From positions 124,001 through 188,000 of the forward strand of contig NZ_FNWW01000001.1 in NCBI RefSeq assembly GCF_900108515.1: a DNA stretch of 64,000 nucleotides, written 5' to 3'. Positions within the stretch are counted from its first letter, which is position 1, and every line of letters begins with the position of its first letter. The position numbers and the translations under genes are program-made. Positions 1,026-59,528 of this stretch are shown here, one piece after another. The notes beneath the pieces were generated by a model. The model saw nothing but the letters and a program-made list of their open reading frames with translations, ran no database searches and was not told the DNA's origin. Source of the stretch: Halobacillus karajensis. Lineage in GTDB: Bacteria > Bacillota > Bacilli > Bacillales > Halobacillaceae.

Positions 1026-1586
1026 TTAAGTTTCGATCAAACCGTAACGGCCGTCACGACGTTTATAAACAATGTTCGTTTCATCCGTATTTGCATTTGT
1101 AAAGACGAAAAAGTTGTGGCCAAGCATATCCATTTGCAATGCTGCTTCTTCACTATCCATCGGTTTCAAGTCAAAACGCTTCGTTTTTACGATTTCCACA
1201 TCAAATTCATCATCGATTGTTTGTGTTTGTTGTTGCTGCGCCTCGCGTTCAAGCTCGGCAAAGACGTATTTCGGAGCACCCTCTTGGCGGAACTTACGAT
1301 TCACTTTCGTTTTATGCTTGCGAATTTGTCGTTCCAATTTATCTACCACAAGGTCGATGGCAGCGTATAAATCTGTATGGTGTTCTTCAGCACGAAGAAG
1401 TAGATTTTTCATCGGGATTGTGACCTCGATCGTCTGCTCATCATTATAGACACTTAAATTAACGTGTACCTCAGAAGACGGGGGAGTATCAAAGTAGCGT
1501 TCAAGCTTGCTCACCTTTTTCTCCACATATTCTTTAATAGAATCCGTCACTTCCAAGTTTTCACCACGAATATTGTATTGTAGCAT
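1026..1586 (-). CDS. hpf: Ribosome hibernation promoting factor, long form
   Basis: This 186-residue protein dimerises 70S ribosomes into inactive 100S particles in stationary phase and stress. The N-terminal S30AE domain (about residues 1-100, starting MLQYNIRGENLEVT) binds the small subunit. A charged Gln-rich linker (QQQQTQ) leads to the C-terminal dimerisation domain (about 128-186, IVKTKRFDLKPMDSEEA and NVVYKR-like end), which defines the long form. The ATG at 1586 follows AAAGGAGG; longer in-frame starts lack an RBS and would read through the promoter. It is B. subtilis YvyD, also located next to the flagellar genes. The sigma-B type promoter just upstream fits its known stress control. 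Confidence 0.96.
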   Translation of the reverse strand: MLQYNIRGENLEVTDSIKEYVEKKVSKLERYFDTPPSSEVHVNLSVYNDEQTIEVTIPMKNLLLRAEEHHTDLYAAIDLVVDKLERQIRKHKTKVNRKFRQEGAPKYVFAELEREAQQQQTQTIDDEFDVEIVKTKRFDLKPMDSEEAALQMDMLGHNFFVFTNANTDETNIVYKRRDGRYGLIET

Positions 1587-47482: not shown

Positions 47483-47737
47483 TTACTTCCTTTTCGTCAT
47501 GTTTTCCCATTGTTCTATTTCGAGCTTTTTAGCTATTTCATATCTTAGAAGAAGTTCTTCCTCCTGCTGTTCATAATGCTCTTTGGTAATTTCATCCAAT
47601 TCATACATCATTTGTAACTGAACCAATTTCTTCTGGATATGCTCCAGGTCGTACATTTCCTTATCCACTTCATCTTTCACATGCTCACCGACTTTTTTTA
47701 TGAGATGGATCGGGGAAGTGAACAATTTGTGAATCAT
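47483..47737 (-). CDS. gvpG: Gas vesicle protein GvpG
   Basis: An 84-residue coiled-coil protein, MIHKLFTSPIHLIKKVGEHVKDEVDKEMYD, then ELDEITKEHYEQQEEELLLRYE. The 'F-x-x-P-x-x-x-I/L' start is the GvpG hallmark. Its ATG overlaps the gvpF stop by four bases. Confidence 0.93.
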   Translation of the reverse strand: MIHKLFTSPIHLIKKVGEHVKDEVDKEMYDLEHIQKKLVQLQMMYELDEITKEHYEQQEEELLLRYEIAKKLEIEQWENMTKRK

Positions 47738-48495
47738 GACGCTTCCACTTTCAGTTTGATGTTGATGAAATTATAAGCAGGCCATGGACCTGTATATTTG
47801 AAGTCAACGTAATCCTTCCAGCGTTCATGTAATTCGTTAACTTTATCATCAAAAGATTCCTCATATTCACGATCAATCAAATAGGCTCCGTTCAAAAGCA
47901 TCTTCTCTCCGAGAGGATCGTTCAACTTAGAAGCCTCTGACAACTTGGACAGGGGATCATGAATCGTTTCTTCAATATCTCTTTGAATCTTAGTGAAAAA
48001 ATCACGGGCCATTTCACCGAGTTGAATCCGGTCAAAGTATCCGGCTGCTTTAGACTTCTGGGCTACCGTGTCTTTTTTCTTCACAATCTTGGTGTTTTGT
48101 TGAATTTGCTCTTCCAGCCATTCCCTTTTTCCAATCACCTTTAAGCCGATCTCTATTTTATTTTTCACTTCCACGAACAACTTTTTGAGCTGTGGATATA
48201 GATTTTCTGTGAGCGCTTGTGTATCTTCTTTTGTATTAAAGACATTTCCAAAACTAATCGGGATCACAGAACTCTCCTGTTCCATCACCCTTGAAATCAC
48301 CTGCTGGTGTGTCATTAATGGTTTTTTCTTAGGATGATAAATTTTAATAGGAGCTTCTATGGCTACCATCGCTGCATCCCTATAATGGATAGTAAAGATT
48401 TCTCTTTCTTCACCCTCAAAATTGATCATTCCGTAATTTTTCTCCTCTTTCGTTTGAATACAACAAAATACATAAATACCGTTTTCTTCAACCAT
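47734..48495 (-). CDS. gvpF: Gas vesicle protein GvpF (GvpF/L family)
   Basis: A 253-residue GvpF/L family protein: GIYVFCCIQTKEEKNYG at the start, VIPISFGNVFNTKEDTQALTENLYPQLKKLF in the middle, NGAYLIDREYEESF and TGPWPAYNFINI near the end, parallel to the same motifs in gvpL. GvpF binds GvpA and may set the start of assembly. ATG after AGGAGGTCTTGGG. Confidence 0.93.
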   Translation of the reverse strand: MVEENGIYVFCCIQTKEEKNYGMINFEGEEREIFTIHYRDAAMVAIEAPIKIYHPKKKPLMTHQQVISRVMEQESSVIPISFGNVFNTKEDTQALTENLYPQLKKLFVEVKNKIEIGLKVIGKREWLEEQIQQNTKIVKKKDTVAQKSKAAGYFDRIQLGEMARDFFTKIQRDIEETIHDPLSKLSEASKLNDPLGEKMLLNGAYLIDREYEESFDDKVNELHERWKDYVDFKYTGPWPAYNFINIKLKVEAS

Positions 48496-48506
48496 CCCAA
48501 GACCTC

Positions 48507-49412
48507 CTAAATTTTCTTACACTGTTCGATAATTCTGTTTCTCGCTTCTTTTTCATCGTTTGTGCTAGATAAAAGCGAAAAATAGGTGATGTCCATACAC
48601 AAATTTTGAAAGGATTCATTTTTGCCTTCGATGGGTACTCCTGTTTTTTCCGCAATATCAGCAATCATAATTGATGAACGTACACTTAAATCTGGTCCTT
48701 TTCCAGATTCCGATTGATTTACATTTCGTATGAACCGCACAACAGCCTCTGCTTTATCCCGGTCGACACCAGTCCGTTCCATGACCACGGCAATTTCAGC
48801 ATCCATACTGATGAAATTCAGCGGGATCGAAATCATTCGGTCCATCAATGCATCCTGAGTATCATAAACACCGATATACTCCGCAGGATTACTTGTAAAT
48901 ACCATTCTAAAGTCCGGGTGTACGCGCAAATGAGAATCCTTTGTTTTGGATCCGTATAACGGAAGAACTCTCTCTTCAAGTACGGAAAGAAACAAATTGT
49001 TCGTATCCGGGGAGGACCTTGTGAATTCATCGTAAACAACGGTATGACCATTTTTCACGGCTTCATAAAGGTGGCCCTCCACCCAGTCTTCCGTTACATT
49101 TTCTTCGATTTTTCTTACAGTTTTAATAAAATTATCATTCAGCTTCTTACGACTATACCCTCTATAGGCGCCGATTAGATCCTCGTTGGTTAAATCCTTA
49201 TTTCCGGTAATTAACGTGACCGGCCGCTTGATTAATTTAGCCACATGGATAGCAAGCGTCGTCTTCCCAACCCCGGAGGGGCCTGTATAATGAACCGGGT
49301 AACCGGCGGATAAATAATTTAATGAACGGCGAATTATGCTTTTATAATAGGGGTGCTCATAAACGCCCTTCTTTTGAGAGGTGTGTAGGTTGCTTTGTTT
49401 CAATACAGTCAT
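48507..49412 (-). CDS. gvpN: Gas vesicle AAA+ ATPase GvpN
   Basis: A 301-residue AAA+ ATPase. Walker A TGPSGVGKTT is at 43-52, Walker B TVVYDEFTRS and sensor VFTSNPAEYIGVYDTQDALMDRM follow; the family is MoxR/CbbQ-like. GvpN drives or remodels gas vesicle growth. ATG at 49412 after GGGAGGGGTGGCG; an upstream in-frame stretch overlaps gvpR and lacks an RBS. Confidence 0.96.
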   Translation of the reverse strand: MTVLKQSNLHTSQKKGVYEHPYYKSIIRRSLNYLSAGYPVHYTGPSGVGKTTLAIHVAKLIKRPVTLITGNKDLTNEDLIGAYRGYSRKKLNDNFIKTVRKIEENVTEDWVEGHLYEAVKNGHTVVYDEFTRSSPDTNNLFLSVLEERVLPLYGSKTKDSHLRVHPDFRMVFTSNPAEYIGVYDTQDALMDRMISIPLNFISMDAEIAVVMERTGVDRDKAEAVVRFIRNVNQSESGKGPDLSVRSSIMIADIAEKTGVPIEGKNESFQNLCMDITYFSLLSSTNDEKEARNRIIEQCKKI

Positions 49413-49425
49413 CGCCACCCCTCCC

Positions 49426-49686
49426 TTATTGCTCGACTTGGTCTTCAATTTCACTTCGATATCTAAGACTCAAACGTGAAAACCCTGTCACTTCGCTGTT
49501 CTCATCAAGAAAAACTTCATATAAGCCAACCATTTGATCTCTCGCATATTTCTTCATATATTCTTTTTCTTCGATTACTTCAACCAACACCCGCCATTCC
49601 TGGTCCTTCTTTCTTGCCGAGATAATTTTATGTGGCGGTGCAATATTTTCATTAAAAAAGTCGGTCACCTGGTTCAAAATCTTCAT
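49426..49686 (-). CDS. gvpR: Gas vesicle protein GvpR / GvpO-like
   Basis: An 86-residue protein: MKILNQVTDFFNENIAPPHKIISARKKDQEWRVLVEVIEEKEYM, then DQMVGLYEVFLDENSEVTGFSRLSLRYRS. The 'W-x-V-x-V-E-x-x-E' and 'Y-E-V-x-L-D' features are those of the GvpO family; position between gvpB and gvpN is that of B. megaterium gvpR. ATG at 49686 behind GAGGG. Confidence 0.85.
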   Translation of the reverse strand: MKILNQVTDFFNENIAPPHKIISARKKDQEWRVLVEVIEEKEYMKKYARDQMVGLYEVFLDENSEVTGFSRLSLRYRSEIEDQVEQ

Positions 49687-49787
49687 AAAACTGCATCCCT
49701 CTCTTTTCCTAATTAGCACATTCTTCATAGATTAGGAAGGGAGGGAACCACTACAGGTTCCCTTTTCCTGTTGGGGAGGATCCCGAC

Positions 49788-50078
49788 TTAAATGCTAAAT
49801 TCTCCGCGCTCGTTTGTAGATTGGGAAGGAGCAGAATCCTCTTCACCTAGTCGGCCTCCAAGCCCTTCTTCTTCCACTTCATCACGTAAAAGCCCAACAG
49901 CCTCTGCATATCGCAGCCATGTATCAACACTGGCAATAACAACCCTTGCTTCTACTGTAATTAATTCAATTCCGACTACAGAGACACGAGCAAACGCATC
50001 AATCACAATACCTTTATCCAAGATACGGTCAACCACTTCAGCAAGACTGGAACTATCTGTTGATTTTTGAATAGCCAT
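49788..50078 (-). CDS. gvpB: Gas vesicle major shell protein GvpB/GvpA
   Basis: The 96-residue shell subunit: [56 protein letters not shown] is almost the invariant GvpA core that polymerises into the hollow protein shell. The C-terminal extension ([19 protein letters not shown]) ends in FSI, as in B. megaterium GvpB. It is the only major shell gene in the cluster. ATG after GAGGAGAATAAAAA. Confidence 0.97.
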
Positions 50079-51067: not shown

Positions 51068-52258
51068 TTGAAGTTCAAAAAACTCGCTACACTGTCACTC
51101 GCTGCGTCACTGGCCCTCTTACCGACAACAGGACAAGCCTTCGCGGAAACACAACCGGAATCTTTAAACAAAGTAAAGGTGCAAGAAGACAAAGGGGAAT
51201 TTGTAAAAGGTGAAGTCGTTGTTAAATATAAGGAAGGAAAATCATTAAAAGGAAAGCAACTTGAATCCTTCGGAGCAGAGACTCTTGAGGATAGTAAAGT
51301 TGTAGATTCAGAAGTAAAAGTACTTAAGGTCGGAAATGTAGAAAAAGCGGTTAAAGCATTAAATAAGAACCCAAATGTTGAATATGCTGAGCCGAACTAT
51401 GTTTTCAATGCCACATGGTCACCAAATGATACTTACTACAGCTCCCATCAGTATGGGCCACAAAATACAAACACAGAAGCAGCGTGGGATATCACTCGTG
51501 GAAGCAGCAATCAGGAAATTGCCATTGTCGACTCTGGTGTTGACTACAATCATCCAGACCTAGCAGGAAAAACAATCAAAGGTTATGATTTCGTTGACAA
51601 CGACTATGATCCAATGGACTTGAACAACCACGGTACACACGTAGCCGGAACAGCTGCGGCTATAACAAATAATGGTTCTGGTGTTGCAGGAATGGCTCCA
51701 AACACGAGTATCCTGGCCGTTCGTGCCCTTGATGCTAATGGAAGCGGATCTTTGTATGATATCGCAGATGCTATCCGTTACTCTGCGGACGAAGGAGCGG
51801 AAGTGATTAACCTTTCTCTTGGTTGTGACTGTGATACACAGACACTTGAAAATGCCGTTAATTACGCGTGGAACAAAGGCTCTGTCGTCATAGCCGCTGC
51901 AGGAAACGATGGCGTATCTACTACATTTGAACCTGCTTCTTATGATAATGTTATTGCTGTAGGTGCTGTCGATAGCAACAACAACAAGGCTTCCTTCTCC
52001 AACTACGGGACTTGGGTTGACGTCACGGCCCCTGGTGTCGACATCGCTTCCACCGTTCCTAACGGCGGATATGCGTACATGTCTGGTACGTCAATGGCTT
52101 CCCCTCACGTAGCAGGTCTTGCCGGTTTGCTTGCATCCCAAGGACGTTCGAACAGCAACATCCGTGCAGCAATCGAGCAAACAGCCGATCCAATCTCCGG
52201 CACAGGCTACTACTTTGAGCACGGTCTGATCAATTCTTATAATGCTGTAAACTATTAA
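51068..52258 (+). CDS. Secreted subtilisin family serine protease (S8)
   Basis: A 396-residue pre-pro-protease. Signal peptide about 1-27 (ends GQAFAE), inhibitor-type propeptide about 28-115 (VKGEVVVKYKEG, VEYAEPNYVF), then the catalytic domain with D155 (IVDSGVDYNHPD), H188 (NNHGTHVAGT), oxyanion N280 (AAAGND) and S342 (SGTSMASPHVAG). The thermitase/halotolerant subtilase group fits its acidic, Asn/Asp-rich surface. The start is TTG at 51068, seven bases after AAAGGAGG; no ATG alternative exists. Degradative enzymes of this kind are usually under DegS-DegU, also encoded here. Confidence 0.96.
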   Translation: MKFKKLATLSLAASLALLPTTGQAFAETQPESLNKVKVQEDKGEFVKGEVVVKYKEGKSLKGKQLESFGAETLEDSKVVDSEVKVLKVGNVEKAVKALNKNPNVEYAEPNYVFNATWSPNDTYYSSHQYGPQNTNTEAAWDITRGSSNQEIAIVDSGVDYNHPDLAGKTIKGYDFVDNDYDPMDLNNHGTHVAGTAAAITNNGSGVAGMAPNTSILAVRALDANGSGSLYDIADAIRYSADEGAEVINLSLGCDCDTQTLENAVNYAWNKGSVVIAAAGNDGVSTTFEPASYDNVIAVGAVDSNNNKASFSNYGTWVDVTAPGVDIASTVPNGGYAYMSGTSMASPHVAGLAGLLASQGRSNSNIRAAIEQTADPISGTGYYFEHGLINSYNAVNY

Positions 52259-52397: not shown

Positions 52398-52482
52398 CGT
52401 ATTGTACTGAAATTCTTTGAATCCTATTCTGGAATTCGTCTTTATGGCATACGTATTCATCGGGGCGAAAGTTTGCCTCCAG

Positions 52483-52496
52483 AGTCCAGGTCATCA
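52483..52496. repeat. Partial copy of the GACCWGGTC repeat, copy 5
   Basis: AGTCCAGGTCATCA shares CCAGGTCATC with copies 1 and 2; no second arm. The weakest member of the set. Confidence 0.3.
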
Positions 52497-52521
52497 TTGT
52501 AGGAAAGACAAATAACTGCTT

Positions 52522-53493
52522 TTAAAATAAAAAGTAAGAAGAAATAAAATACATGACAACAATAAGGAAAGACGGAGCAGCGTAATGCAAGAGACCTCCA
52601 TACGATTTTCTCCTCATCATATATAGAATAAGACCCACCATTCCAATAAATAGAAGAGCAATAGGAAGGTTTCCTCCGGACGTTGCATTCAAGATCGGTC
52701 CTTTTTGATAAAAAATATCTGTGATTGCAAGCAGCTGAAGATTAAATAAATTACTCCCCAGGATTGATCCCACAGCCATATCATAGTTTGCCAGCTTTAA
52801 GGCGACAAGTACGGTGATAAGCTCGGGCAGAGAGGTAGAAGCAGCAATCAAAAAGCTCCCAACAAAACTTGAATTCATCCCTGTCTGCTGTGCCAGTTGA
52901 TCCCCAAAAATAGACAATGCGCTGCCGGCAGCAAAAACGATGACCGCACTAACAGCGAAACCAACACTTGCCGCCTTCAAGGAATAGTCCTTTCCTGTCG
53001 CAGCAGCCTCATCCTCGACCATTTCTTTCTCTTCATTATTATCAAAGTATCTGACGGTGAACACATAAAGCCCTACTAAGATAAACATTTCAATACCGAT
53101 ATTAAAGATGGTGATACTAGAATTTAACACCAAGGAAAGAACTACTACCCCTGTAAAAACCATTGCAGCAAATGCAGAAGGCAGGTGCTGTTTTGGTTCA
53201 ATCATGTTAAACATCCGTTTTCTGCGGTAAATGAGATCTATAAAAGCTAATATTAAGACGTTAAAAATATTGCTCCCTAACATATTTCCTACAGCAATAT
53301 CTGGATTATCGATGTAAACGGCAGTAAGACTTGTGGTTAGTTCCGGCAATGAAGTAGCTCCTGCGATTAGGAATGTGCCTACAACAGCTCCACTTAATTT
53401 AGATTTTTGGCTAATGACGTCACCGAAACGGTTAAGTTGAATAGACGCTAGGACGACAATAACGGCAGACAGGGTGAATATTAGAAATGTCAT
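52522..53493 (-). CDS. CaCA family cation exchanger (Mn2+/Ca2+ export)
   Basis: A 323-residue membrane protein with about ten TM helices in two halves, each with an alpha-repeat: GTFLIAGATSLPELTTSL with AVGNMLGSNIFNVL, and GSFLIAASTSLPELITVL with AVGSILGSNLFNLQ. This is the YrbG-type Na+/Ca2+ exchanger fold. The gene lies directly behind a yybP-ykoY manganese riboswitch, so export of Mn2+ is the likely role. ATG at 53493 after AGGAGGGAAATG; two earlier in-frame ATGs overlap the RBS. Confidence 0.92.
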   Translation of the reverse strand: MTFLIFTLSAVIVVLASIQLNRFGDVISQKSKLSGAVVGTFLIAGATSLPELTTSLTAVYIDNPDIAVGNMLGSNIFNVLILAFIDLIYRRKRMFNMIEPKQHLPSAFAAMVFTGVVVLSLVLNSSITIFNIGIEMFILVGLYVFTVRYFDNNEEKEMVEDEAAATGKDYSLKAASVGFAVSAVIVFAAGSALSIFGDQLAQQTGMNSSFVGSFLIAASTSLPELITVLVALKLANYDMAVGSILGSNLFNLQLLAITDIFYQKGPILNATSGGNLPIALLFIGMVGLILYMMRRKSYGGLLHYAAPSFLIVVMYFISSYFLF

Positions 53494-53593
53494 CATTTCC
53501 CTCCTCATCTTGAATCAGCAAGAACAGATGTGCCCGTTACAGCTCTGCTCCATAAGAGTTCACAATCATTGAATTCTATAATTTCCCAGACAA

Positions 53594-53632
53594 TAAAAAA
53601 AGACCTTGACCATCTAGAGTGGCCAAGGTCTT
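53594..53632 (-). terminator. Riboswitch-controlled terminator
   Basis: AAGACCTTGGCCA / TGGTCAAGGTCTT hairpin plus seven T on the minus strand, about 100 bases before the exchanger start. Its 5' arm overlaps the conserved 3' box of the aptamer, as in other yybP-ykoY expression platforms. Confidence 0.85.
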
Positions 53633-53721
53633 GCGTACTATGGTTATAGTTTGATGAACCGAGTGTGTGCACACTGAAATGACGATCCATCAACCGTATG
53701 ATACGGTCGCTACTCCCCTTG
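53612..53721 (-). ncRNA. yybP-ykoY Mn2+ riboswitch aptamer
   Basis: On the minus strand the leader begins AAGGGGAGTAGC (53709-53720), the conserved 5' box. Two hairpin regions follow (ACCGTAT/ATACGGT and GTGTGCACAC), then the 3' box GCAAGACCTTGGCC (53621-53634). These conserved strings, their order and the following terminator define the yybP-ykoY family, whose ligand is Mn2+. Mn2+ binding should hold the GACCTT segment in the aptamer and prevent the terminator, switching the exporter on. Confidence 0.88.
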
Positions 53722-53729
53722 ATATAATC

Positions 53730-53758
53730 AATATAGCGAATTCTTAAAGAAACGTCAA
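53730..53758 (-). promoter_or_regulatory. Sigma-A promoter of the riboswitch-exchanger unit
   Basis: TTGACG (53753-53758), 17 bases, TATATT (53730-53735) on the minus strand; transcription would begin right before the aptamer. Confidence 0.85.
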
Positions 53759-53885
53759 AGAAATAGATGTTCCTTTTTCTTTTTGAAAGTTCTTATTCAT
53801 AGAGCGATGATCCATTAATAACTAATTCAACTAAATGGCAGGATAGTGGGAGATCTTTGATGGTTAAGGGGCAATAGGAAAATAC

Positions 53886-53964
53886 GAGACTCCAGCGGGA
53901 CCCCACAGGGCGCAGCCCGCGGAGGCTTTCCATCTTCCCCGCGGAAAGCGAGTAGCTTTCCATC
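53886..53964. repeat. Interspersed GC-rich repeat of the Bacillaceae type
   Basis: The segments GAGACTCCAGCGGG, GCGCAGCCCGCGGAGGCT and CCCCGCGGAAAGCGAGTAG occur in this order. The stretch is much richer in GC than its surroundings and can fold. I recognise it as a widespread intergenic repeat of Bacillaceae genomes. It is non-coding; the flanking bases up to glnQ at 54074 hold nothing else. Confidence 0.75.
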
Positions 53965-54073
53965 CTATTCGGTATTGTTTTCCCAAAAGCCTTCTTATTC
54001 AGAACACAGTTTAGAGGTATTTTTGGTGTGAATGGGTAACAACAGCCTCTTATGGGAAAATGTTCTATTTTTA

Positions 54074-54796
54074 TTATAAGACTTTACTTAAAAACTCTTG
54101 TGTACGGGGGTTTTGCGGATTACCGAAAAGGCGTTCCGGAACATCTTCCTCCATAATAATTCCTTCATCCATAAACAACACGCGATCCCCCACTTCTCGA
54201 GCAAATCCCATTTCGTGTGTAACGACGACCATCGTCATCCCTTCTTGGGCAAGATCTTTCATAACCGCGAGCACATCTCCGACAAGTTCTGGATCCAGGG
54301 CTGAGGTCGGTTCATCAAACAGCATAATACTCGGTTCCATTGCCAATGACCGGGCGATGGCTACCCGTTGCTTTTGACCACCGGACAGACTTTCCGGATA
54401 AGCAACCGCTTTATCACTCAGACCGACTTTCTCCAATAAAGGGTGTGCGATTTTTTCTGCTTCTGTTTTTTTCATGCCTTTCACCTTTATTGGACCAATT
54501 GTAATGTTATCCATAACGGTCATGTGTGGGAAGAGGTTGAAGTGCTGAAACACCATCCCCACTCGGGAACGGACATCATTGATATTGATTTTAGGATCTG
54601 TCAAATTCTCCCCTTGAATGAGGACATCTCCAGAAGTGACTTCTTCTAATAGATTCAAACATCGTAAGAATGTACTCTTCCCTGAACCAGATGGTCCGAT
54701 GACACAGACCACCTCTTTTTCTTTAATCTCTGCATTAATTCCTTTTAAAACTTCATTGGAACCGAATGATTTGTGCAAATCTTTAACGGTAATCAT
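54074..54796 (-). CDS. glnQ: Polar amino acid ABC transporter ATPase, GlnQ type
   Basis: A 240-residue ATPase: Walker [21 protein letters not shown]-loop [16 protein letters not shown], signature [15 protein letters not shown], Walker [21 protein letters not shown], His in [12 protein letters not shown]. These match the GlnQ/HisP subfamily. Adjacent to the permease with a one-base overlap. Confidence 0.95.
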
Positions 54797-56967: not shown

Positions 56968-57001
56968 ATAAGAGCCCCCGGATATGGGGGCTCTTATTAG
57001 T
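56968..57001. terminator. Terminator after the PepSY gene
   Basis: CTAATAAGAGCCCCC / GGGGGCTCTTATTAG with a 6-base loop reaches the stop codon of the PepSY gene. The palindrome is symmetrical, so it could work from both sides. Confidence 0.8.
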
Positions 57002-57525
57002 TAGTCCTCTTTATCTTTTTCAAACTCGATAACTTCACCGGTTTGCCCATGGATCGTTACTTCATATTCGTATTCTCCATCGTGCAGTTCAAATTCATAA
57101 TGTCCATCATCGATTCCCATTTCTTTGACTTCACTGCCAGCCGCTTTTTCTTTCGCCGTTTTCTCCGCGTCTTCTTTCTTCACTTTTATCCCAGCGGCTG
57201 CTTTTTCTTCGGACTCATCCTCGTCACCATCACGATCTATTTTGACTATTTCTCCGGTGTTCGCATCAAGATCAACATTCATTTCTTTTCCTTCTTCCGT
57301 ATGCCCATCTATTTCATATAGGAGGACACCATCCTCTTTATCTTTTTCTACTTTATCAATTGTAAGACCATTGATTTCTTTTTTTGCTGCTGATTCAGCT
57401 TCTTTTTGTGTGAATTTGACATCCTTCTCTGACCAGCTAGAATCATCTGACATAGCACTAACACCGTAAGCACCCCCGAGAAGAACGGCACCTATAATCC
57501 CACTAATTAACCATGTTTTCTTCAT
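57001..57525 (-). CDS. Secreted/anchored protein with two PepSY domains (YkoI-like)
   Basis: A 174-residue protein: one N-terminal hydrophobic segment (LISGIIGAVLLGGAYGVSA), then two PepSY repeats (KEAESAAKKEINGLTIDKVEKDKEDGVLLYEIDGHTEEG and the parallel KEDAEKTAKEKAAGSEVKEMGIDDGHYEFELHDGE), each ending in a 'T-G-E-V/I' strand. Very acidic. PepSY domains often inhibit proteases or modulate signalling outside the cell. ATG at 57525 after AAAGGAGGAAACAAA. B. subtilis ykoI occupies the same place beside ykoGH. Confidence 0.88.
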   Translation of the reverse strand: MKKTWLISGIIGAVLLGGAYGVSAMSDDSSWSEKDVKFTQKEAESAAKKEINGLTIDKVEKDKEDGVLLYEIDGHTEEGKEMNVDLDANTGEIVKIDRDGDEDESEEKAAAGIKVKKEDAEKTAKEKAAGSEVKEMGIDDGHYEFELHDGEYEYEVTIHGQTGEVIEFEKDKED

Positions 57526-57612
57526 TTTGTTTCCTCCTTTTATTGTTCTACTTTTACTATATCCAGCGTGCATGAGAACAAATGGAGAAGAAAATGAGAA
57601 TTTGATGAGAAA

Positions 57613-58143
57613 TTAATCATCCCATGTAATGGATAGGATCTCCCCAGTAATGGCATGGATTTGTACGGTTGCTTCAAGTTCGTCTTCCCGTTCTATTTCA
57701 ACAAGAAAGTAGGCAGGGTCTTTTTCGTTTTCAAAATCGATATCATCAACTTTCCCGTCGACTTCCTTGAGCGCGGCTTCTTTCGCTTTCTCTTCTGTAA
57801 TCGGCTGAGCTTCAGCTTCTTGATCGGGAGGACTTGGTTCAGATAGTGGTGTGTCTTTTTCATTTTGAAAATCTTCAAGCTGCCGGATTCTTGCGACACG
57901 ACCATCTTCTTTCGCTATCACTACTTCATAAAGACCTTCTTTGAGCTCTAAGGAAGCCAGGTAATGGTCATCCATTGAAGTCATATCTGTAATTTGTCCA
58001 TTGTATTGAGACTGTACTTTCTCACGAATATCGGTCTCTGACAAAGGTTCAGCGCTAAGGCGCTGGTTTACAATCTGCCATCCAATAAGCAGCAAAACGG
58101 CCAACCCAAGTATGGAAATCACTACTTTTGTAAATGTAGACAT
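57613..58143 (-). CDS. Membrane-anchored PepSY domain protein (YkoJ-like)
   Basis: A 176-residue protein with one TM helix (VVISILGLAVLLLIGWQIV), then an extracytoplasmic part ending in a PepSY domain (ITEEKAKEAALKEVDGKVDDIDFENEKDPAYFLVEIERED, ATVQIHAITGEILSI); an earlier degenerate repeat spans about 35-85. ATG at 58143 follows AAGGAGGAAGCGT; an ATG at 58161 has a poorer RBS. It lies 20 bases after the kinase gene in the same operon. Confidence 0.86.
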   Translation of the reverse strand: MSTFTKVVISILGLAVLLLIGWQIVNQRLSAEPLSETDIREKVQSQYNGQITDMTSMDDHYLASLELKEGLYEVVIAKEDGRVARIRQLEDFQNEKDTPLSEPSPPDQEAEAQPITEEKAKEAALKEVDGKVDDIDFENEKDPAYFLVEIEREDELEATVQIHAITGEILSITWDD

Positions 58144-58163
58144 ACGCTTCCTCCTTGTCATAA

Positions 58164-59528
58164 TCATACCTTCCAAAAATGTGAATTCCCTGAGAGAGGC
58201 AAGAGAATGCTTGCTGTGGTTCCTTTCCCTTTTTGGCTGGATAATGTGATTTCTGCTCCGATCGCTTGTGCCAATTCTTTCGCCAGAGAAAGACCGAGCC
58301 CTGATCCTTCCGTTCTTGACTGATCCACTTGGTAAAAACGATCGAATACTTTATCGAGCTCCTCTTCTGTCATCCCCATTCCCTTATCGGTGATATGAAT
58401 GCGTGCCTTATCCTCTGTCTCATCGACCTTTATTATAATCGGTCCTTCACTATATTTGCGGGCGTTATCCATAAAAATGTAAAGCAGCTGCTTTAACTTC
58501 TGCTCATCCGTTTGGACTTGTATTTCCTTTATACCTTCCCAGTCTACTTGACGGTGATAAGCATGTTCAAAAGAAGCAACCGTTGTATTGAGAAAAGGGG
58601 ATAATGCGATACTCTCTAAGTACACATTCCACTTCTCTTCCTGTTTTGCAAGGAGAAGAAGTTGCTGGGTCAGCTCCCGCATCCGTTTTGCCTCAGAATG
58701 AATTGCTTCTACAGATTCTTGAAAAAGTTCTTCATCCTGAGTTCCTCTCCTTTTTAAAAGGCTTGCGTAAGACTCAATTACCGTCAAAGGTGTCTTCAGC
58801 TCATGGGAAGCATTGGATACAAATTGTTCCTGTTTTTGATAATTATCTTCTAGCTGGACGATCATTTTATTGAATGTATCTGCCATTTGGGATAATTCAT
58901 CTTTCGAATTTCCTTCATAAGTAATCTGTTTGAATTGACCACTTCCGCGGATCTCCTGCATCGTTACAATTAAAGAGCGAATCGGATTCGCTATCAGTTT
59001 ACTTAAAAAATGGGCAGAAAGAAAAAGGGGGACGATTGCTAAAATGGTGACAATTACCAGAACGATCTGTAAAATGCTTAAATTGTCCTCCGTCGTTTCA
59101 AGGCTTTGAGTTAACTGTAGAGCTGCAATGTTTCCATTTGTCCAAATGATGGGAATGGAAACAAAAGCATGTGGAACGCCTTGATAACTTCGAACGTCTG
59201 CTTTCTCCCTTTCTTCATAATGATATGTCTGGTCGGTTAAGTACTGCTGTCCTCCACCGGTCAAATTGACATCTGCAGTCCCATCCTGGAGAACGACTCT
59301 TATCATTCCATTTCCTGGTACATAAGCTCTCAACAGTTCAGCCGAAGGGGCATCTTCCGACCGTTCGTTGATTTCTGTCACAATCCGCTCGGCTTCCTGC
59401 TGTGTTTCTTGAAGATCACTATCATAAACAATTTTACTGAATGAAAAATAAACCGCACTGCTGATCAGGAGAAGAAGAAAGATGAAGAGGCCAGTCGTAT
59501 AGAATTGAATTCTATTTCCTAGTTTCAT
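58164..59528 (-). CDS. Sensor histidine kinase, YkoH-like
   Basis: A 454-residue kinase: TM1 (about 12-33), an extracytoplasmic sensing domain of roughly 120 residues, TM2 (about 150-172), HAMP, HisKA with SNASHELKTPLTVIESYASL (phospho-His) and HATPase with DNARKY, ITDKGMGM and GSGLGLSLAKEL motifs. With PepSY proteins next door it parallels B. subtilis YkoH. The signal is unknown; cell-envelope or protease status is a guess. Its ATG overlaps the regulator stop by four bases. Confidence 0.92.
   Translation of the reverse strand: MKLGNRIQFYTTGLFIFLLLLISSAVYFSFSKIVYDSDLQETQQEAERIVTEINERSEDAPSAELLRAYVPGNGMIRVVLQDGTADVNLTGGGQQYLTDQTYHYEEREKADVRSYQGVPHAFVSIPIIWTNGNIAALQLTQSLETTEDNLSILQIVLVIVTILAIVPLFLSAHFLSKLIANPIRSLIVTMQEIRGSGQFKQITYEGNSKDELSQMADTFNKMIVQLEDNYQKQEQFVSNASHELKTPLTVIESYASLLKRRGTQDEELFQESVEAIHSEAKRMRELTQQLLLLAKQEEKWNVYLESIALSPFLNTTVASFEHAYHRQVDWEGIKEIQVQTDEQKLKQLLYIFMDNARKYSEGPIIIKVDETEDKARIHITDKGMGMTEEELDKVFDRFYQVDQSRTEGSGLGLSLAKELAQAIGAEITLSSQKGKGTTASILLPLSGNSHFWKV

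Follow-up and report, generated by a model that had tools for sequence, protein, structure and literature searches.

A predicted yybP-ykoY manganese riboswitch upstream of a CaCA cation antiporter gene in Halobacillus karajensis and its relatives

A stretch of 64,000 nucleotides of the Halobacillus karajensis genome (contig NZ_FNWW01000001.1, positions 124,001 to 188,000; hereafter the window) carries a gene for a CaCA cation antiporter, preceded by a leader resembling the Mn2+-sensing yybP-ykoY riboswitches. Homology labels such transporters calcium exchangers, and the locus raises the question of which ion the RNA senses and which ion the protein moves. It is likely, in our judgement, that the leader is a Mn2+ riboswitch acting as a transcriptional ON switch which drives a Mn2+-exporting antiporter. 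Aptamer, terminator, the overlap of the two, the gene and its linkage to the element come from sequence and comparison, while Mn2+ binding and switch direction are taken over from published members of the class. All coordinates are window positions, and promoter, aptamer, terminator and antiporter gene all lie on the minus strand. Statements on published systems draw on portions of the papers cited.

Class and anatomy of the leader RNA

Assignment of the leader RNA to the yybP-ykoY class, as proposed in the initial annotation, is well supported by an independent covariance model and by canonical letters in L1 and L3. The covariance search suggested along with it gave a mixed result with Rfam. 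With relaxed filters RF00080 was the best match in the leader (25.9 bits, E = 2.3e-5) but stayed below its gathering score of 45 bits, which is a curator's reporting cut-off and stands for no structural feature. The second-best relaxed match, an rnk leader (E = 0.03), and a Ref70 match on the opposite strand (E = 0.23) were far under their own gathering scores and were dismissed as chance. The independent model was derived from 30 loci of the order above the Rfam cut-off, all 30 upstream of TerC genes and none upstream of a CaCA gene. Six near-copies (judged by eye) were omitted, the remaining 24 elements were aligned (A1), a junction structure was assigned by hand and model R1 was built; the hand-made structure mis-pairs P2 in seven of the 24 rows (at least two broken P2 pairs). 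In the window R1 found a single site up to E = 10, at 53721-53624 (64.6 bits, E = 2.6e-15), which spans the full model length (1-102). In the 4.07-Mb genome of the organism the search, in which 150 of 1895 first-look candidates were scored, yielded two sites at E values of 10 or less, the window aptamer and an element before a TerC gene. The latter (L001; C13:648980-649066, minus strand) scores 71.7 bits with R1 and also lies below the Rfam cut-off.

The same shortfall was seen in relatives. None of 20 loci (19 antiporter-linked ones and the organism's own TerC-linked element) matches RF00080 at the gathering score, and Mn riboswitches of this order thus escape notice at the reporting cut-off. 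The sole gathering-score Rfam match among these loci is a thiamine pyrophosphate riboswitch in L019 (1056-1153, minus strand), about 200 nt upstream of the Mn element (1356-1455, plus strand) and on the opposite strand. Across 199 genomes of the order, RF00080 matches with E <= 0.001 in 138 and above the cut-off in 46. We thus attribute the missed gathering score to a cut-off that is too strict for this clade; it reflects no failed class feature.

The aptamer comprises 98 nt (53624..53721) and is predicted by R1 and by folding to form a four-way junction of P1, P2, P3 and P4. The junction is closed by the switch helix P1.1; this trait of the class, whose junctions are three- or four-way, is found in the model and the fold and, through covariation, in relatives. 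Its 5' strand CAAGG (53717..53721) was assigned from the covariance model, the fold and relatives, and its 3' strand CCTTG (53624..53628), common to aptamer and terminator, from the fold and relatives. Both conserved boxes named in the initial annotation, GGGGAGTAGC and GCAAGACCTTGG, are present. The 5' strand of L1, the octamer GGAGTAGC (53709..53716), recurs unchanged in 79 of 79 antiporter-linked elements; L1 reads GGAGUAGC with GCAAGA on the opposite strand, in agreement with the class pattern of GGAGUAGC plus GC(A/G)AGA. The metal-binding loop L3, UCGUCAUUUC (53676..53685), was identified from sequence, conservation and the published letters of the Lactococcus lactis RNA (UCA41AU43UC), in which A41, A48 in Xanthomonas oryzae, is the invariable Mn-contacting base (PMC6754395). 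Its equivalent in the window is the A at 53680. The 3' strand of L3, CGG (53659..53661), pairs with UCG, as indicated by the combinations UCG/CGG, UCG/UGG, UCA/UGG and CCG/UGG.

An intrinsic terminator stem-loop of 13 pairs (53600..53632) with a seven-T run (53601-53595) starts within the 3' box of the aptamer, so that the box does double as the terminator's 5' arm, as had been claimed. The 33 nt of the terminator fold with -19 kcal/mol (z = -5.5); three terminator-like sites occur within 52400-54100 versus 1.4 expected. When folded alone, the 98 nt of the aptamer adopt the four-way junction with P1.1 closed as minimum-energy structure (-29 kcal/mol, z = -2.7), and 4 of 200 shuffles fold as stably. 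Addition of 34 nt switches the minimum-energy fold to the terminator.

The published L. lactis element shares the L3 core, the four-way junction and the location of the P1.1 3' strand within an intrinsic terminator (PMC11087558, PMC6754395) but differs in the letter after the discriminator A, which is A in L. lactis and U in the window. It lies upstream of yoaB (PMC9190785). TerC (YkoY-like)-linked elements, including L001, likewise have the same core and junction and, in the leaders inspected, a terminator starting in the same box, whereas their P2, P3 and P4 sequences and the downstream gene differ; P1.1 starts with CAAGG in the window, while all but one of the 24 aligned TerC-linked elements have AAAGG. 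The yoaB product of L. lactis is not known to be a CaCA antiporter.

Upstream of the aptamer, the sigma-A type promoter TTGACG-N17-TATATT noted earlier was recovered at 53758-53730 (53730..53758) with 10 of 12 consensus matches. It is the top-scoring promoter-like site within 52400-54100, where eight such sites were observed and 4.2 (standard deviation 2.4) expected, and ends 8 nt before the aptamer starts. Among the 79 linked leaders of relatives, 45 score at least 9/12 in the 45 nt preceding the aptamer and the remaining 34 score below; 10.8% of base-shuffled leaders reach this score. The antiporter gene (328 amino acids) is annotated at 52522..53508. The ATG at 53508 coincides in part with the ribosome-binding site GAGGAGG, as read from the sequence, and translation therefore more likely starts at 53496 or 53493.

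Competing helices and spread of the pairing

Competition of aptamer P1.1 and terminator for one strand, the antitermination logic first read from the window, is well supported by comparison of sequences, including linked changes in relatives. Without Mn2+, AAGACCUUGG would pair with downstream sequence to form the intrinsic terminator, and the gene would be off. Binding of Mn2+ between L1 and L3 would let the aptamer dock; P1.1 (CAAGG/CCUUG) would then hold AAGACCUUGG, the terminator would be blocked and the antiporter made. The protein would take in Na+ or H+ and expel Mn2+, perhaps Ca2+ as well. Published work describes that Mn2+ stabilises P1.1, whose 3' strand otherwise joins the terminator (PMC6754395, PMC11087558).

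All 79 linked elements form at least four of the five P1.1 pairs. At least three of the five P1.1 3'-strand bases are taken up by a hairpin preceding a T-run in 79 of 79 if the best T-run is considered (59 of 79 with the first T-run only), and in five of five further elements. Terminator hairpin energies range from -16.8 to -35.5 kcal/mol in the 79 elements and down to -40.7 among the five further ones, values that are overstated where the segment reaches as far as a T-run further on. After base-shuffling, downstream sequences reach -11 or lower in 58 of 395 cases and -16.8 or lower in 34 of 420; all real ones pass. P1.1 occurs as CAAGG/CCTTG (36 elements), AAAGG/CCTTT (34), CAAAG/CTTTG (2), CAAGA/TCTTG (2) and in five other forms. 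In L014, L015 and L020 the other arm of the terminator co-varies with P1.1, a three-way change that is expected if selection keeps both pairings. Not every change is of this kind, as L022 shares the P1.1 change of L020 but retains the old terminator arm via a wobble pair. In alignments A2 and A3, 96.2% and 95.5% of cells pair and both-sided changes occur at 19 and 22 of 28 pairs, respectively, counts that lean towards the model because both alignments were fitted to its structure; sliding the partners destroys the signal. A2 includes L001, and A3 includes one chance match (L142, 13.4 bits).

The pairing of element and antiporter gene is widespread. In the family, 34 of 44 genomes contain the antiporter at E <= 1e-60 (43 loci), and 24 of these loci, in 24 different genomes, have the element. 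In the order, an antiporter match at E <= 1e-40 was found in 109 of 299 sampled genomes; the element is present at 55 of the best 78 new loci listed (E <= 3.7e-73) and at five of the next 55 listed (6.3e-73 to 9.4e-60). Altogether, 84 of 178 CaCA loci examined have it, in all 84 cases on the strand of the gene and upstream, at a distance of 40-328 nt (median 68) from the first aligned codon. It is absent from L003, a paralogue in the same genome (35% identical), and from Gracilibacillus L076, and a contig scan with the single window protein returned one locus only, in Gracilibacillus oryzae, without element. Linkage is thus found mainly in closer relatives and is rare in distant ones.

Of the 123 rows in a protein tree, 79 are switch-linked. 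Here the switch label needs 11 changes versus a mean of 36 after shuffling, and none of 500 shuffles was as low; the tree comes from a quick search and has long branches. Five linked loci of the E range 6.3e-73 to 9.4e-60 stand outside the tree and the covariation counts. The linked rows fall into 13 family codes (f1, f2, f3, f6, f9, f20, f25, f28, f30, f35, f36, f39 and f42), to which the five further loci add f5 and f45 (genomes G047 and G087). Several unlinked rows are second copies in genomes that also have a linked copy. Such switch-free second copies are L063, L064, L065, L066, L069, L074 and L075, and the genomes holding both kinds are G005, G021, G012, G009, G016, G033 and G030. One antiporter-linked element, L160 252-338 (87 nt, 70.9 bits), resembles the TerC-linked type more than it does the other linked elements.

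Ligand of the RNA and substrate of the antiporter

L1 reads GGAGUAGC in all 79 linked elements, none of which has lost the discriminator A. The L3 run reads UCGUCA in 62, UCAUCA in 11, CCGUCA in four and UCACCA in two, and the UCG/CGG step varies as a pair (G-C, G-U or A-U; this tally includes L001 and one chance match). Many antiporter-linked elements have UGG for CGG as 3' strand of L3, paired with UCG, UCA or CCG, a form found in none of the 24 TerC-linked training elements. Among the latter, UCGUCAUUUC is the commonest L3 form (12 of 24). The letters of the window aptamer itself give no sign of a changed ligand, and Mn2+ binding is predicted.

The downstream protein is a CaCA exchanger, as annotated initially: PF01699 (Na_Ca_ex) matches in two stretches at 108 bits (cut-off 24.9), and the CaCA fold with both SLPE repeats is present. 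The designation 'YrbG-type' is right in a loose sense but misses the cut-offs of the NCBIfam YrbG equivalog PRK10734 (81 of 432 bits required) and of TIGR00367 (110.5 of 179.65 bits required). The fold, the two alpha-repeats and cavity residues are shared with NCX_Mj and other CaCA exchangers (NCX, CAX, YfkE, NCLX), for which control by a Mn riboswitch is unmentioned in the portions of text consulted. For the comparison with NCX_Mj, whose N81 and S236 we take to be cavity residues, ten side chains were considered (T52, S53, E56, S79, N83, T225, S226, E229, S252 and N256). The remaining NCX_Mj cavity positions are named in PMC8366772.

The closest precedent is BP3410 of Bordetella pertussis, a CaCA antiporter annotated as calcium:cation antiporter, with a yybP-ykoY riboswitch in its leader, and a reported Mn exporter; it is Mn-induced, and its transcript is reported to stop within the riboswitch without Mn (PMC8546581). 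Its host belongs to a different phylum, and BP3410 is known by experiment whereas the window antiporter is known by sequence alone. The idea of a CaCA antiporter under a Mn riboswitch is thus already known, and the proposed re-annotation of the window gene, though sound, is not new. A Ca2+:cation exchanger class is also listed as 'YRBG' among Mn exporters in a review (PMC9936198), and yrbG of the gammaproteobacterium Vibrio vulnificus is a CaCA-type gene under yybP-ykoY control by RegPrecise prediction only (PMC13274385). A partial literature search did not turn up the pairing in relatives of Bacillus, which is not to claim its absence from print. New here are the spread of the pairing across one bacterial order and the finding that the elements tested are missed by the Rfam cut-off. 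From the riboswitch in its leader and the example of BP3410 we infer that the window antiporter likely exports Mn2+; its substrate and coupling ion are both to be read in this sense.

Several points weigh against a Mn2+ switch that drives a Mn2+ exporter. At gathering scores Rfam returned no match anywhere in the 64-kb window. For the MgtA aptamer of Streptococcus, binding is described as tighter with Ca2+ than with Mn2+ (PMC9495176), and the class is therefore not strictly Mn-only; one review terms Mn riboswitches 'OFF' switches (PMC11477304), which contradicts the ON direction adopted in our reading. Alx, likewise controlled by a yybP-ykoY riboswitch, raised cell Mn according to a review (PMC9936198); riboswitch control is thus no proof of export. 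The cavity residues equal those of NCX_Mj except for N in place of D240, a position that also sets NCX_Mj apart from other NCXs (PMC8366772), and with cavity residues like those of Ca2+ exchangers no protein feature favours Mn over Ca. Finally, PF02659 (MntP-family) matches occur in 41 of 44 family genomes, some of them weaker or split and not all necessarily MntP, and the organism's own genome has three cation diffusion facilitator matches, one with an internal stop; there is thus no gap solely for the antiporter to fill.

In one alternative the RNA responds to Mn2+, but the protein transports mainly Ca2+ or accepts Mn2+ and Ca2+ equally, and Mn2+ would be a signal adjusting both ions. The Ca2+-exchanger cavity would agree with this, as would MgtA, a Mn2+/Ca2+ ATPase controlled by a Mn riboswitch (PMC9936198, PMC9495176), but BP3410, a CaCA antiporter with a leader of this type, is inducible by Mn but not by Ca, and cells with a functional protein contain less Mn (PMC8546581); we consider this explanation rather unlikely. 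It is improbable that this yybP-family RNA is a variant with specificity for a different divalent ion, even though some yybP RNAs are suspected of a changed ligand (PMC7266159), the MgtA aptamer is reported to bind Ca2+ (PMC9495176), the gene downstream of the element bears the name of a Ca2+ antiporter and the UCGUCA run is altered in 17 of 79 linked elements. The window's own L3 is tied to no variant and is the form prevailing among TerC-linked elements, its L1 letters are the same, and the 17 variants keep the CGG/UGG pairing and spare the discriminator adenosine, with only the two UCACCA elements altering the loop as well. A chance or decayed element, with leftover boxes and only the terminator working, would account for the silence of Rfam at gathering scores, but the E value obtained with R1, conservation and covariation in relatives, and the fact that the TerC-linked element of the same genome also lies under the Rfam score make it very improbable.

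Two presumed indicators of substrate were rejected. Cavity residues are no sign of Mn selectivity, as the same ten occur with and without switch in the 60-row alignment A4 (L118 omitted); the only departures, I for T52 in two rows and D for E229 in two rows, agree with L003 and L074, which are distant unlinked paralogues. With the cavity uninformative, the RNA and the BP3410 precedent are the basis for naming Mn2+ as substrate. Absence of MntP as a sign of its replacement was equally uninformative: G035, G036 and G038, which lack PF02659, have the switch-free antiporters L028, L031 and L027, the opposite of substitution.

The preferred reading of the locus, a Mn2+ switch driving Mn2+ export, would assign a likely substrate to transporters that homology labels calcium exchangers. 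Chances seem evenly balanced that the order-wide CaCA group named calcium/sodium antiporters serves riboswitch-driven detoxification of Mn2+ (or Mn2+/Ca2+) and was overlooked by Rfam-based annotation, with later duplicates having lost the switch and perhaps returned to Ca2+ duty. Genomes with both switch-keeping and switch-free copies offer a natural comparison for the choice between Mn2+ and Ca2+ despite like cavity residues.

Neighbouring genes

Gas-vesicle genes are located on the minus strand at 47734-50078. They code for a GvpL/GvpF protein (47734-48495), an AAA ATPase (48507-49454), which we presume to be GvpN-like, and a structural protein (49788-50078). Convergent with the antiporter gene, a subtilisin-family protease with a Fervidolysin-type prodomain is encoded on the plus strand (51068-52258). 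A PepSY-domain protein with two such stretches is encoded at 57001-57573 on the minus strand, and a similar-looking open reading frame adjoins it at 57613-58176.
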